A DNA stretch of 64,000 nucleotides, from positions 1,052,001-1,116,000 of the forward strand of contig CP168152.1 in NCBI GenBank assembly GCA_041545745.1. The letters run 5' to 3'. The DNA comes from Stenotrophomonas indicatrix (lineage in GTDB: Bacteria; Pseudomonadota; Gammaproteobacteria; Xanthomonadales; Xanthomonadaceae). The translations under genes and the position numbers were made by a program. Shown here piece by piece: positions 9,521-13,691 of the stretch (position 1 is its first letter; each line of letters starts with the position of its first letter). The notes beneath the pieces are model-generated. The model worked only from the letters and a program-made list of their open reading frames with translations. It was not told the origin of the DNA and did no database searches.

Positions 9521-11014
9521 TCAGCAGCAGCCGTGGTCGCCGTTGCGGGTGCCACTGTCGGCGGCCACCGGCGAACCGCTGGTCTCGCCACGCAGGCTTG
9601 CCGCGTAGTGCTCGCTGATCACCTTGGACACGCACGAGGTGACCTTCTTGCCCATCGGAATGTGCAGGAACTCGTTCGGGCCGTGGGCGTTGGAGTGCGG
9701 GCCGAGCACGCCGGTGATCATGAACTGGGCGCCCGGGAACTTCTCGCCCAGCATGCCCATGAACGGGATCGAGCCGCCTTCGCCCATGTACATCGCCGGC
9801 TTGCCGAAGAAGGTCTGGCTGGCATCGTCGATGGCCTTGGTCAGCCACGGTGCCATCGCCGGCGCGTTCCAGCCGGTGGAGGCCTTTTCCAGGTCCAGGG
9901 TGACCTGCGCGCCGTTCGGCGGATCGCGCAGCAGTGCTTCCTTCAGCAGTTCGCCGCAGGTCTTGCCATCGGCAGTCGGCGGCAGGCGCAGCGACAGCTT
10001 CACCGCGGTATGCGGGCGCAGCACGTTGCCGGCCGATTCCAGCGGCGGCATGCCGCCGATGCCGGTTACCGACAGGGCCGGGCGCCAGGTGCGGTTGAGC
10101 ACCAGCTCGGTCAGGTCGTCGTTCATCGGCGTGAGGCCGTCGACCAGCGGGAATTTCTCGAAGATCGCGGTATCGACCACATCGGCGGCGCGCTTGGCCT
10201 GCTCCAGGCGCTCGGCCGGGATCTCTACGTTCATGCCCTCGATCAGGATGCGGCCGGTGTCCTGGTCCTCGATGCGCGACAGCAGCTGGCGCAGCAGGCG
10301 GAAGCTGGACGGCACCACGCCGGAGGCATCACCGGAGTGCACGCCTTCGTTGAGCACCTTCACCGAGAAGTTGCCGCCGGTCAGGCCGCGCAGCGAGGTG
10401 GTGCACCACAGCTGGTCGTAGTTGGCGCAACCCGAATCCAGGCAGACCACCAGCGACGGCTTGCCGATGCGGTCAGCCAAGTGGTCGACGTAGGCCGGCA
10501 GGTCGTAGCTGCCCGACTCTTCACAGGCTTCGATCAGTACCACGCAGCGGGCATGCGGCAGGCCCTGGGCCTGCAGCGCCAGCACCGCGGCCAGCGAGCC
10601 GAAGATGGCGTAACCGTCATCGGCGCCGCCACGGCCATACAGCTTGTCGCCGCGCAGGACCGGGGTCCACGGGCCGAGGTCGTCGTCCCAGCCGGTCATC
10701 TCAGGCTGCTTGTCCAGGTGGCCGTAGAGCAGGATGGTGTCGTCGCCGGTTTCGGCGCCGGTAGCCGGAATTTCCAGCAGAATCAGCGGGGTACGGCCTT
10801 CCAGGCGCACCACCTCGACCTTCAGGCCGGGCAGTTCCTGCGCCTTGGCCCAGGTTTCCATCAGGGTGACCGCCTGCTCCATGTAGCCGTTCTGCACCCA
10901 ATTGGCGTCGAACATCGGCGACTTGTTGGGAATGCGGATGTAGTCGACCAACTGCGGGACGATTTCGCTGTCCCACTTGTCATTGACGAATTGGCCGAGC
11001 TTGGCGCTGTCCAT
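9521..11014 (-). CDS. M20 family dipeptidase/metallopeptidase
   Basis: About 497 residues if started at MDSAKLGQFV (GGAG 6 bases upstream); the ATG at 11032 (MQPEFQ, with AGGA upstream) or at 11047 are alternatives. Zinc-peptidase signatures are visible: YGHLDKQPE (His99, Asp101), the bridging Asp in GGADDGYA (residue 132), EACEESGS (Glu166/167, general base and ligand) and NEFLHIP near the C-terminus. The family cleaves dipeptides or short peptides. It is monocistronic and divergent from the ComEA-like gene. The C-terminal tail ends NGDHGCC, an odd Cys pair. Confidence 0.92.
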   Translation of the reverse strand: MDSAKLGQFVNDKWDSEIVPQLVDYIRIPNKSPMFDANWVQNGYMEQAVTLMETWAKAQELPGLKVEVVRLEGRTPLILLEIPATGAETGDDTILLYGHLDKQPEMTGWDDDLGPWTPVLRGDKLYGRGGADDGYAIFGSLAAVLALQAQGLPHARCVVLIEACEESGSYDLPAYVDHLADRIGKPSLVVCLDSGCANYDQLWCTTSLRGLTGGNFSVKVLNEGVHSGDASGVVPSSFRLLRQLLSRIEDQDTGRILIEGMNVEIPAERLEQAKRAADVVDTAIFEKFPLVDGLTPMNDDLTELVLNRTWRPALSVTGIGGMPPLESAGNVLRPHTAVKLSLRLPPTADGKTCGELLKEALLRDPPNGAQVTLDLEKASTGWNAPAMAPWLTKAIDDASQTFFGKPAMYMGEGGSIPFMGMLGEKFPGAQFMITGVLGPHSNAHGPNEFLHIPMGKKVTSCVSKVISEHYAASLRGETSGSPVAADSGTRNGDHGCC

Positions 11015-11212
11015 CTGAAACTCCGGTTGCATGGCTGATCCTGACATTCTACGCCTCGGCCAAGGGTAGGGTTTTCCCTACATCACGTCGGGTATTTGGC
11101 TGGCTTTTAGAAATCCGTGAACCCGATACGCTGTGTACATGTGGTGACGGACACTGTTTCGACCGACGGGATTGCCGGTCGGGACGGTCAGAACCACAAG
11201 GAGATATACGTC

Positions 11213-11539
11213 GTGCCTTGGTTTGTCGTGTTTAGGGCGCTGGTGCTGGGAGTGTGGATCGCGGGAGCGCAAGCTGCCGAGCCGATTGACATCAACCGGG
11301 CCGATGCCCAGGCGCTGCAGCAGGGATTGACGATGGTCGGGGCCACCAAGGCCGCGGCGATCGTCGAGCACCGGCGCAGACACGGCCCGTTTCACCGCGT
11401 CGAGGACCTGACGCAGGTTAAAGGGATAGGGACATCGATCGTCGAACGGAATCGACGGCGGATCACCGTTGGCAACACGATGTTGCCTGCGGATCCGGTA
11501 CCCGGATCGGTACCGGTGCGAACCGTACCCAGGCGCTGA
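11213..11539 (+). CDS. ComEA-like helix-hairpin-helix DNA-binding exported protein
   Basis: 108 residues from a GTG start preceded by the very strong ribosome site AAGGAGATATAC; the longer upstream frame lacks such a site. A signal peptide (FVVFRALVLGVWIAGAQA) is followed by the ComEA core: IDINRADAQALQQGL, VGATKAAAIVEHRRRHGPFHRVEDLTQVKGIG. ComEA binds incoming double-stranded DNA in the periplasm during natural transformation, but short homologues also exist without competence genes, and none lie nearby. A Pro/Arg-rich tail closes the protein. It immediately precedes the regulatory RNA gene. Confidence 0.85.
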   Translation: MPWFVVFRALVLGVWIAGAQAAEPIDINRADAQALQQGLTMVGATKAAAIVEHRRRHGPFHRVEDLTQVKGIGTSIVERNRRRITVGNTMLPADPVPGSVPVRTVPRR

Positions 11540-11540
11540 C

Positions 11541-11814
11541 AACAGGAAACGTCGGGACCGGCAGGATGCAGGTCCACTGGCTGCGGACAGGATGCCCGTA
11601 ACCACCGACCGTCGCAGGGATGCGGCACCAATCACCAGGATGGTGGCATCACAGACCTGTGGAAGGGGCTGAGATACAAACAGGACAGACGCGGCCGCGT
11701 GCAGGATGCAACGCCGCCCCCGCTTCGCAGGATGCGAGGGGGTGGCAGCAGGCCGACAGGGACGTGACGATTGCCCGGTACGACACATGGCTGTGTCGCC
11801 GGGCAATTTCTTTT
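11541..11814 (+). ncRNA. Probable RsmA/CsrA-sequestering small RNA (multi-hairpin, GGA loops)
   Basis: An intergenic transcript is inferred from structure. At least six hairpins present GGA in the loop: 11555-11575 (GGACC..AGGAT..GGTCC), 11584-11598 (CGG/CCG), 11613-11624 (CGCA-GGGA-TGCG), 11633-11645 (CACC-AGGAT-GGTG), 11691-11717 (GCGGC outer arm, TGC-AGGAT-GCA apex) and 11717-11742 (CCCCC/GGGGG with TCGC-AGGAT-GCGA apex). Further unpaired ACAGGA sites lie at 11543, 11680 and 11757. A strong intrinsic terminator ends it at 11814. This is the architecture of RsmY/RsmZ/CsrB RNAs, which titrate RsmA. The 5' end is not defined; an imperfect palindrome at 11509-11529 lies near the likely promoter. 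I cannot match it to a named RNA family. Confidence 0.8.
11770..11814 (+). terminator. Intrinsic terminator of the small RNA
   Basis: ATTGCCCGG pairs with CCGGGCAAT and CGACACA with TGTGTCG (16 base pairs with one 2-base bulge), loop TGGC, followed by TTCTTTT. It is the strongest terminator-like structure in the window and ends 63 bases before the L,D-transpeptidase gene. Confidence 0.93.
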
Positions 11815-11877
11815 GGCGCAGCCACCACGCGCCCATGGTGTACGGTGAGGCCATTCGCATGGAATGGAACCTGCTGG

Positions 11878-12945
11878 ATGCACCTGCACCGTTTGACCCT
11901 GATGCTCGCCGCCGCGCTGGCACTGCCCTGCGCCGCGCACGCGGCCGCACCCTCCAAGCCGGTCGCGACGACGACGTCCGAAGTGCGCGGGCCGACCGAC
12001 CTCAAGCCCGGCGAGTACCTGTGGCATCCGGAAGTTTCGCCGGCCGGGCCGATCGTGCTGGTGGTGAGCCTGGATGAGCAACGGGCCTACGTGTACCGCA
12101 ACGGCATCGCCATCGGCCTGACCACGATCAGCTCGGGCAAGATCGGCCATGAGACGCCGACCGGTGTGTTCACCATCCTGCAGAAGGACAAGGACCACCG
12201 TTCCAACCTCTACAACAGCGCACCCATGCCGTACATGCAGCGGCTGACCTGGGACGGTATCGCGCTTCACGGCGGCAGCCTGCCCGGGCACCCGGCCTCG
12301 CATGGCTGCGTGCGCCTGCCGCAGGCCTTCGCCCAGAAGCTGTTCAGCGAAACCAAACGCGGCGATACGGTGGTGGTGGCCGATGCCAAGAGCGCGCCGA
12401 TGACGCTGGCCTATCCGGCCGTGCTGGCGCCGGTGAATGCGCGCGGACAGGCCCTGCCGGAAGGCGAGGCCGGCGCCCCGGACAAGGCGTGGTGGGATGA
12501 TGCGGCCGCCCCCAGCGGTCAGGTCGGCATCCTGGTCAGCCTGCACGACCAGCGCCTGTACGTGCTGCGCGACGGGGTGATGATCGGTGAGTCGCCGTTG
12601 AAGGCCGACGCGCTGCCGGCGTTCCAGGGCACCACTCTGTTCGTGATGGGCCAGGGCTACAGCGATACGCCCAGCCCGCTTGATGCGCAGCAGCGCCTGC
12701 ACCAGTGGACGGCCTATCCGTTGTTGGGCCAGGACCGCGCCCAGGCCACGCCGGACCTGCTGGCCACCCCATCGCTGCCGATGGCGCTGCCGGCCGATTT
12801 CGCCCGCCAGCTGTACCAGGTGCTGGTGCCGGGTACGACCCTGCTGGTCACCTCGCTGCCGGCGGTGCGCCCAAGCGCGGCTGAATCGGGTATGCAGCCG
12901 GTCTTGGAATCGGAGCCGCCAGCGTCCACCCTCAAGGGATCCTGA
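11878..12945 (+). CDS. L,D-transpeptidase (YkuD) with a degenerate second repeat
   Basis: 355 residues with signal peptide (hydrophobic core 6-16, AHA cleavage near 22). The YkuD domain (about 50-175) carries the catalytic ASHGCVRLP motif with nucleophile Cys144 and the upstream LHGGSLPG His. Such enzymes cross-link peptidoglycan through meso-DAP or attach proteins to it in the periplasm. The second half (about 220-330) repeats the opening pattern of the domain: VSLHDQRLYVLRDGVMIG mirrors VSLDEQRAYVYRNGIAIG, but it lacks the His and Cys, so it looks like a catalytically dead duplicate. The start at 11878 has only a weak ribosome site. It lies 63 bases after the small-RNA terminator. Confidence 0.9.
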   Translation: MHLHRLTLMLAAALALPCAAHAAAPSKPVATTTSEVRGPTDLKPGEYLWHPEVSPAGPIVLVVSLDEQRAYVYRNGIAIGLTTISSGKIGHETPTGVFTILQKDKDHRSNLYNSAPMPYMQRLTWDGIALHGGSLPGHPASHGCVRLPQAFAQKLFSETKRGDTVVVADAKSAPMTLAYPAVLAPVNARGQALPEGEAGAPDKAWWDDAAAPSGQVGILVSLHDQRLYVLRDGVMIGESPLKADALPAFQGTTLFVMGQGYSDTPSPLDAQQRLHQWTAYPLLGQDRAQATPDLLATPSLPMALPADFARQLYQVLVPGTTLLVTSLPAVRPSAAESGMQPVLESEPPASTLKGS

Positions 12946-12962
12946 GACCTCCCTGCGTGCCC

Positions 12963-13691
12963 ATGTCTGCTTTCCGCCTGTGCTGGCTGGCCGCCCTTGG
13001 TCTGCTTGCGACCACTGCCAGTGCCCCGGCCGGGGCACGGACGCGTGTCGCCACAGCGATCAGCGCCGACGATCTCGCTGCGCAGTTGGCACGTACCGCG
13101 CCGAAGGCCGACCGTCGGGTTCTGCAGTTGGCCGCCCACGCCATGCGCTGCGCGCTGCAGCGACCGGAACTGGGTGTCAGCGGTGAGCGCCTGAGCGTGA
13201 TCGATTACTCGCGGCCGTCCACCGAGCCGCGGATGTGGGTCTTCGACCTGGCCCGCCAGCGGCTGTTGTTCGAGGAGTGGGTGGCGCACGGCCGCAACAG
13301 TGGCGAGAACCGCACCGAGCATTTCTCCAACCGCGATGGCAGCTTCATGTCCAGCCTCGGCGCGTTCACCGCGCAGGAAACCTACATGGGTGGCAACGGC
13401 TATTCGCTGCGCCTGGCAGGGTTGGAGCCGGGTTTCAATGATCGTGCACGCGAGCGCGCCATCGTCATCCACGGTGCGCCGTATGTGAATCCCTCCACCG
13501 CACAGTTGCAGGGGCGGTTGGGGCGCAGTCTCGGCTGTCCGGCGGTGCGGTTGTCGGTGGCCAAGCCGCTGATCGACGCGCTGCGGGGCGGCACGATGGT
13601 GTTCGCGTACTACCCTGACCAGGACTGGCTCAAGCACTCGCAGCTGCTGGGTGGCGATTGCGGTACGGCGGCGGGTATTGCAACGCGGTGA
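12963..13691 (+). CDS. Murein L,D-transpeptidase catalytic domain protein (YkuD_2 type)
   Basis: About 242 residues, starting at ATG 12963 (a GTG two codons earlier is possible). A signal peptide precedes the domain. Motifs WVFDLARQRLLFEEWVAHGRNSG, IVIHGAPYVNP and SLGCPAVR (Cys192 as probable nucleophile) identify the YkuD_2 family. It begins 17 bases after the previous L,D-transpeptidase gene, so the two very different L,D-transpeptidases are probably cotranscribed. The family's exact substrate is not established; a periplasmic role on peptidoglycan is expected. Confidence 0.88.
   Translation: MSAFRLCWLAALGLLATTASAPAGARTRVATAISADDLAAQLARTAPKADRRVLQLAAHAMRCALQRPELGVSGERLSVIDYSRPSTEPRMWVFDLARQRLLFEEWVAHGRNSGENRTEHFSNRDGSFMSSLGAFTAQETYMGGNGYSLRLAGLEPGFNDRARERAIVIHGAPYVNPSTAQLQGRLGRSLGCPAVRLSVAKPLIDALRGGTMVFAYYPDQDWLKHSQLLGGDCGTAAGIATR

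Follow-up and report, generated by a model that had tools for sequence, protein, structure and literature searches.

The comEA 3' untranslated region of Stenotrophomonas indicatrix, an enlarged RsmU homologue that probably titrates CsrA

Segment 11540-11814 of the stretch analysed here (the window, 64,000 nucleotides of the Stenotrophomonas indicatrix contig CP168152.1) is very probably the 3' untranslated region (UTR) of comEA, an enlarged homologue of the Xanthomonas small RNA RsmU that would be co-transcribed with comEA and would titrate CsrA. We describe its anatomy, the covariation of its stems among relatives, its homology with the RsmU-matching UTRs of Xanthomonas-like loci and the presence of one CsrA gene in the genome; from these observations we infer that, in Stenotrophomonas, the region is transcribed, processed and able to titrate CsrA. 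The window RNA is a larger and more widespread variant of a published RNA and does not represent an unknown class.

Results

The comEA gene (11213..11539, + strand) has a GTG start and ends with the stop codon 11537-11539. In profile searches its 108-aa product, a helix-hairpin-helix DNA-uptake protein, matched Pfam PF12836 and scored above the cut-off of TIGR00426. A divergent M20 peptidase gene (9521-11047, minus strand) lies upstream, and the UTR is followed by two L,D-transpeptidase genes (YkuD and YkuD_2; 11878-13691), beyond which lies a HutD-family gene. When Xanthomonas-like loci were read by eye, a HutD-like gene seemed to follow the comEA UTR directly. An earlier reading of the window made from the letters alone (the sequence-only reading) had placed a small RNA between the ComEA-like and L,D-transpeptidase genes; the position was right, but the unit starts at the comEA stop codon and is therefore a 3' UTR and not an isolated gene. 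That the 274 bases 11541..11814 are noncoding, as proposed there, was borne out by comparison with relatives. Their UTR alignment contains one- and two-base indels, and the lengths to the terminator of 42 distinct long Stenotrophomonas-like UTRs fall into all three modulo-3 classes (7, 8 and 27 UTRs), so that 11540-11814 appears to be noncoding. Mechanically, part of it is crossed by an ORF that has an early ATG (11620-12945).

The UTR (11540..11814, + strand), defined from its motifs, alignment, covariation and terminator, is rich in GGA. The + strand of 11541-11814 carries nine CAGG(G)A and six CAGG(G)ATG motifs, compared with means of 0.51 and 0.08 per 274 nt over the 64-kb window. The same strand contains 12 GGA, the density being 4.4 per 100 nt in the UTR versus 1.4 in the window, and the reverse complement contains a single GGA and no CAGG(G)A. 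The triplet CAGGATG-N12-42-CAGGATG-N12-42-CAGGATG occurs once in the 4.66-Mb genome, at the comEA UTR, with no match for the reversed-pattern control; it was used instead of the looser CAGGRTG, which also takes in CAGGGTG and gave 39 forward and 27 reverse genome matches.

The elements of the UTR, all on the + strand, are as follows (loops in parentheses; A1 and A2 are the alignments described below). Right after the stop codon lies the ACAGGAAA site (11542..11549), taken as unpaired and partly conserved in A1. Hairpin 1, GGACC G GC (AGGAT) GC A GGTCC (11555..11575), is helix 1 of A1; hairpin 2, CGG (ACAGGATGC) CCG (11584..11598), was supported by RNAalifold and has a longer stem in many relatives; hairpin 3, CGCA (GGGA) TGCG (11613..11624), and hairpin 4, CACC (AGGAT) GGTG (11633..11645), are helices 2 and 3 of A1 and also appear in the loop count. 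A mid-UTR ACAGGA site (11680..11685), taken as unpaired, precedes hairpin 5, TGC (AGGAT) GCA (11700..11710), and hairpin 6, TCGC (AGGAT) GCGA (11725..11737), both supported by A2 and the loop count. The most conserved CsrA-type site, ACAGGGACGT (11756..11765), likewise taken as unpaired, is followed by an intrinsic terminator with a nested stem and a T-rich tail (11771..11814; helix 7 of A1, 98.4% of cells paired). All six AGGAT- or GGGA-loop hairpins named in the sequence-only reading can be read in the sequence with their stems, and the ACAGGA motifs that it placed unpaired between hairpins are present. The terminator, announced as 16 base pairs, is there too, but in A1 it measures 14 pairs and a 2-nt bulge; a simple terminator scan did not list it. 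Since the UTR adjoins the YkuD gene on its upstream side, it could be regarded as a leader or attenuator of this L,D-transpeptidase gene. However, the terminator stands between the two, and the module is also found 3' of comEA where the next gene looks HutD-like (by eye), making such a role extremely improbable.

A GGA was scored as lying in a loop when the loop measured 4-8 nt and was closed by at least three consecutive Watson-Crick pairs. By this rule 6 of the 12 GGA of the window UTR are in loops, compared with a mean of 2.23 in 500 dinucleotide shuffles, 13 of which reach six. These mechanically selected hairpins differ from the six listed above, as GGACC/GGTCC (inner stem of 2 bp) and CGG/CCG (9-nt loop) are omitted and two others added. 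The minimum-free-energy fold of the UTR has a z of -2.67, several of the small hairpins being merged into longer-range pairs. Support for GGA-loop hairpins from the window sequence alone is modest. Over the whole set of 42 non-redundant UTRs, 273 of 470 GGA are in loops, whereas shuffles average 76.9 and never exceed 93. When stems of at least four pairs were required, GGA (109/470) ranked first for loop share among trinucleotides with 30 or more occurrences, ahead by a small margin of the overlapping GAT and AGG.

Covariation was examined in A1, an alignment of 18 long UTRs, with the tested structure written down from the window sequence. In this alignment 95.2% of cells are paired, a value that falls to 28-45% when the partner is slid by 1-3 columns. 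Both-side changes are found at 12 of 37 pairs, compared with 4.0 in shuffles, none of the 500 being as high. Hairpin 1 shows such changes at four of its seven pairs with 88.9% of cells paired, its outermost pair being broken in 10 of the 18 sequences. Unconstrained RNAalifold on A1 returned 67 pairs, of which 22 show double changes, and included hairpin 2 (columns 53-58 with 74-79). Of the six pairs of this hairpin, four are altered on both sides in 5-12 sequences each, and one of these four is broken or gapped in 6 of 18; one pair is seen as CG, GC, GU, UA and AU across relatives. Hairpin 4 is nearly invariant, except in locus L024, where it reads CATC (CGGAG) GATG. Among relatives, the GGA in loops and the ACA-GGA sites are mostly kept while the stems change.

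In A2, a broader alignment of 24 sequences, 90.0% of cells are paired and the covariation score lies beyond all shuffles. Two of the five covariation measures, the double-change pair count and the pair-type count, are within the shuffle range (51/500 and 122/500), and RNAalifold on A2 retains just the GGC hairpin and the terminator. Hairpin 5 has counterparts in Xanthomonas-like loci with ACGC/GCGT and similar stems, and hairpin 6 (helix 2 of A2, 75.6% of cells paired) has other stems round the same loop in relatives.

Taken together, these comparisons provide strong evidence that the GGA loops are conserved on covarying stems. The fixed loop on varying stems perceived in the single sequence was thus recovered among relatives, in A1 and in the loop counts over the 42 UTRs, and the stem covariation between related genomes whose lack had been named beforehand as refuting the proposal was found in A1 and by RNAalifold. 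A chance arrangement, a repeat element or an ordinary terminator region that binds no protein might be invoked on the grounds that high G+C content gives many stems and that some single-sequence shuffles reach six GGA loops. Such an explanation is nevertheless highly improbable, given loops conserved on covarying stems and the uniqueness in the genome of both the motif cluster and the R2 match reported below.

RsmU (sRX061) of Xanthomonas campestris pv. campestris was described as a small RNA cut from the comEA 3' UTR; it starts 25 bp past the comEA stop and consists of 77 nt followed by a 40-nt terminator (Tang et al. 2020, PMC7694677). In the genus that we number g37, the distance from the stop to the terminator repeat is 102 nt in 7 of 8 loci and 105 nt in L072, and the UTR, T tail included, is about 142 nt long. 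Because this geometry fits the published sRX061, g37 is taken as Xanthomonas; judging from its sequences, g26 probably belongs there as well. A covariance model, R2, was built from eight of these Xanthomonas-like UTRs (g37 and g26), with the terminator removed and no Stenotrophomonas sequence included. Searched genome-wide, R2 found window positions 11688-11772 with 52.6 bits (E 3.8e-11), the next genome match scoring 19.2 bits. At E <= 0.001 it also found 20 of 22 other comEA loci (L049 and L090 were missed) and none of 8 other sources. Because this held-out model finds the segment 11688-11772, the 3' half of the window UTR is an RsmU homologue: by sequence comparison, the 127-nt 3' module (11687..11813, + strand) is homologous to RsmU by way of Xanthomonas-like UTRs that match its geometry. 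The more inclusive model R1, which contains the window sequence itself, matches this module with 111.2 bits. The region had first been taken for a stand-alone, nameless small RNA of the RsmY/CsrB type; R2 and the published account of RsmU (PMC7694677) show it instead to be a comEA 3' UTR and an RsmU homologue. Its proposed role as an RsmA/CsrA-titrating RNA is well supported by the anatomy and homology, which make it very likely that it binds CsrA/RsmA.

Within the part of the published work devoted to RsmU, RsmA binding was demonstrated in vitro and in vivo by EMSA and Co-IP, and the RNA was described as more than 90% identical in all sequenced Xanthomonas and absent from other bacteria (PMC7694677). 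The window module is far more diverged than that in A2. An RsmU in which AAU replaced four GGA still bound RsmA and gave the same phenotypes on overexpression (PMC7694677). Together with the normal phenotype reported on loss of RsmU (below), this result weighs against a strong role for the RNA. All eight g37 loci carry eight GGA apiece in the corresponding 117-nt stretch, however, and the binding retained by the mutant may reflect the GGA that remained.

The profile survey found ComEA in 284 of 297 genomes of the family. R1 was built from 24 sequences of both kinds, Stenotrophomonas-like and Xanthomonas-like, some of the genomes searched being its sources; at E <= 0.01 it matched 139 of the 297 genomes, in 28 of 54 genera, with no match in 158 under the strict filters. 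Of the 121 best matches at E <= 1e-4 that were examined, 89 had a listed ComEA position, and 88 of these lie directly downstream of comEA on the same strand, the exception being G239. The same locus, which the sequence-only reading had suggested seeking in other Xanthomonadaceae, is thus widely present. In an order-wide sample of 121 genomes, R1 gave 15 matches, all within this family. Several comEA loci lack such a UTR when their sequences are read, for instance L071, L085, L093, L094, L108, L109 and L127. The 42 non-redundant UTRs range from 84 to 304 nt and from 5 to 19 GGA, and 40 of them contain ACANGGANGT, which is absent from L049 (Silanimonas) and L052 (a Lysobacteraceae MAG). Among 57 Stenotrophomonas-like loci, 55 have a UTR of more than 250 nt; short UTRs occur in the remaining two, L027 and L028, and in four further loci of the same genus. 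The hairpins of the 5' half (11540 to about 11686) are a feature of the long Stenotrophomonas-like forms.

Two R1 matches were found in 11 of the 15 matched genomes of g36, which suggests that module duplication lies behind UTR growth in this genus. In L118 and L119, both of g36, two ACANGGANGT sites lie downstream of comEA. Five g65 genomes (G105, G163, G304, G315 and G333) have R1 matches with E of 4e-5 to 6e-4 and no ComEA match at E <= 0.001; in g65 the sponge may persist alone or adjoin a diverged comEA.

As judged from these matches, the new observation is that RsmU-related RNAs reach beyond Xanthomonas into many genera, with a longer form in Stenotrophomonas. Full-text searches of the open-access literature found, among the papers examined, none placing RsmU in Stenotrophomonas: PMC8995066 mentions the two together only as a citation and an unrelated accession, the main text of PMC11946847 does not contain RsmU, and that of PMC5568370 contains no Xanthomonas, Stenotrophomonas, comEA or Xylella.

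Could the region be a free-standing small RNA gene, transcribed from a promoter of its own within or beyond comEA? In its size of about 270 nt, its number of sites and its terminator it is like RsmY, RsmZ and CsrB as these are generally known. However, a crude scan of 11000-12000 detected no sigma-70-like site (0.4 expected in shuffles), and linkage to comEA is conserved. No Rfam family was reached either by the search for CsrB, RsmY and RsmX that had been proposed earlier: nothing in the window attained a gathering score (CsrB had 12.5 bits versus 71), and 18 loci, the window's and 17 related ones, gave no match at E <= 0.1. In X. campestris, deletion of the comEA promoter was reported to abolish RsmU (PMC7694677). 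A gene of this kind is therefore improbable here, and we retain a UTR co-transcribed with comEA.

A more serious rival is a chiefly cis-acting UTR: by binding there, and perhaps at the leader too, CsrA would protect comEA mRNA and determine how much ComEA is made, while the pool of free CsrA would hardly change. In the X. campestris experiments concerned, comEA mRNA was less stable without rsmA, RsmA was bound by the full-length comEA mRNA and not by the ORF, and a strain without RsmU was normal in the traits tested, namely virulence, HR and swarming (PMC7694677). The comEA leader, moreover, often has ACAAGGAG and GGA hairpins. Against this, deletion of the 3' UTR cut comEA mRNA just slightly, and overexpressed RsmU alone works in trans: virulence, HR and swarming then resemble those of a strain that has lost RsmA, and EPS and enzymes are unchanged (PMC7694677). 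The number of sites, variable between clades, would also exceed what control in cis should need. We regard a mainly cis-acting UTR as unlikely, though deserving of real weight, and prefer a UTR titrating CsrA.

The leader of the window comEA contains a hairpin, CCGAC..GTCGG (11163..11182, + strand), with GGA in its loop, a weak candidate for a CsrA site; a script selected another as the longest, GTGGTG/CACTGT, and the leader fold has a z of 0.03 relative to shuffles, leaving structure unsupported. GGA-loop hairpins can be read in the leaders of many relatives as well. In ACAAGGAG (11196..11203, + strand), a Shine-Dalgarno sequence is read overlapping ACAAGGA, a CsrA-type motif. Of 48 distinct Stenotrophomonas-like comEA leaders, 33 contain ACAAGGA; among the loci listed, it is present in 8/8 of g37, 9/10 of g26 and 3/3 of g63, and the leaders of many other genera are without it. 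In Xanthomonas-like loci, the comEA leaders are similar to 11163-11203 of the window. Through the GGA-loop hairpin and ACAAGGAG in the leader (11163-11203), CsrA might repress comEA translation too.

Further upstream, 148 nt from the comEA start, lies an 18-bp palindrome, GGTAGG-N6-CCTACA (11065..11082), a putative site like the GacA box, TGTAAG-N6-CTTACA (PMC4950607). Spacing and half-site length are the same; the best cases differ from the GacA box once per half and the window copy at three positions. With at most one mismatch, GTAGGKWTTTYCCTAC occurs in the genome only at this palindrome, the control giving 0. Of 48 distinct Stenotrophomonas-like leaders, all 48 have at most one difference from TGTAGG-N6-CCTACA, and with 0-2 differences this box is found at -132 to -195 from comEA in Stenotrophomonas, g37, g26, g63, g62, g23, g35, g39, g36 and Silanimonas. 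Such a box, with at most two differences, arises in 0.9% of mononucleotide shuffles.

The co-occurrence of box and sponge was assessed in 51 loci chosen from the ComEA list and grouped into 28 genera, which the Fisher test treats as if unrelated. Allowing two differences, 12 of 16 genera with ACANGGANGT downstream have the box versus 2 of 12 without it (g29 and g70; p 0.006); allowing one, the counts are 9/16 and 1/12 (p 0.016). The classing behind these counts is crude, since g38 was scored as having ACANGGANGT though little beyond the terminator hairpin remains, and Silanimonas (g29) as lacking it despite a GGA-rich UTR. The genera g50, g65, g46 and g38 have ACANGGANGT without the box, and g30 is mixed. 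The divergent M20 gene was found in box-less genera as well (g22, g31, g46, g47, g50, g52 and g61), so the box does not simply track this gene; no M20 gene was found, however, in the short sequences upstream of comEA from g38, g42, g58, g65, g66, g70, g73 and some boxed genera. On these sequence counts, the box tends to occur where the sponge does.

As a candidate regulator, the genome contains a response regulator nearest to UvrY (G000:C1:1756546-1757190, positions 1495-2139 of locus L146), with 187 bits and 44% identity to E. coli UvrY, the next scoring 133 bits. Its best family, NCBIfam NF007018, was matched with 222.5 bits, below the cut-off of 280. Inspection by eye of the 3.6-kb L146, covering ORFs of 120 aa or more, revealed no uvrC beside it like that in E. 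coli, and synteny thus gives the name GacA no support. At E <= 1e-50 the family survey found relatives in 287 of the 297 genomes, representing 53 of the 54 genera, box or no box. The co-occurrence of regulator and box was rejected as evidence for Gac, the regulator being near-universal in the family. Because the regulator is near-universal and scores below the NCBIfam cut-off, a link to Gac is put forward as a proposal only.

Discussion

In the mechanism that we propose, comEA and its UTR would be transcribed together up to the terminator at 11771-11814, and the UTR would act after processing or while still attached to the comEA mRNA. About nine GGA sites, in hairpin loops and unpaired ACA-GGA, could hold several CsrA dimers, and CsrA captured in this way would relieve the control that it exerts on other mRNAs. 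CsrA/RsmA controls virulence and motility genes in Xanthomonas. The S. indicatrix genome holds a single CsrA, with L4 and R44, residues named as RNA-binding (PMC4950607). If this proposal is true, one conserved locus provides Stenotrophomonas, Xanthomonas and many of their relatives with a CsrA antagonist, its strength being set by hairpin number and its control tied to a DNA-uptake gene. In its passages on xanthomonads, a 2021 review gives CsrB no known structural homologue there and the upstream regulators of RsmU as unknown (PMC7831014). We tentatively suggest, with considerable doubt, that the comEA mRNA supplies the CsrA sponge so far missing from a Gac/Rsm circuit in this family: a GacA-like regulator acting at the TGTAGG-N6-CCTACA box would yield a single transcript delivering both the uptake protein and a sponge tuned by clade through gain and loss of hairpin modules, with CsrA acting also on its 5' leader, so that DNA uptake would be coupled to CsrA release.

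Compared with known sponges, the window RNA resembles CsrB/CsrC and RsmX/Y/Z in its many GGA hairpin loops, unpaired sites, intrinsic terminator and proposed titration of CsrA. Those RNAs have promoters of their own, whereas for the window RNA no own promoter was found, nor any Rfam match at gathering score. For RsmY and RsmZ, own promoters are stated in PMC4950607. According to the same source, RsmW of Pseudomonas aeruginosa is an RsmA-binding RNA with 7 GGA, apparently cut from the PA4570 3' UTR and reported not to be activated by GacA. RsmW is like the window RNA in being a GGA-rich RNA from the 3' UTR of a protein gene; its host gene is PA4570 instead of comEA.

The closest counterpart is RsmU, with which the window RNA shares its place in the comEA 3' UTR, its strand, a homologous 3' module, a terminator and GGA sites. 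The two differ in size, as the window RNA extends 275 nt after the stop versus about 142 in RsmU, with additional 5' hairpins (11540 to about 11686) accounting for about 150 nt. They differ also at the 3' end, the window terminator hairpin containing no GGA; among long Stenotrophomonas-like terminator ends, 11 of 55 contain one.
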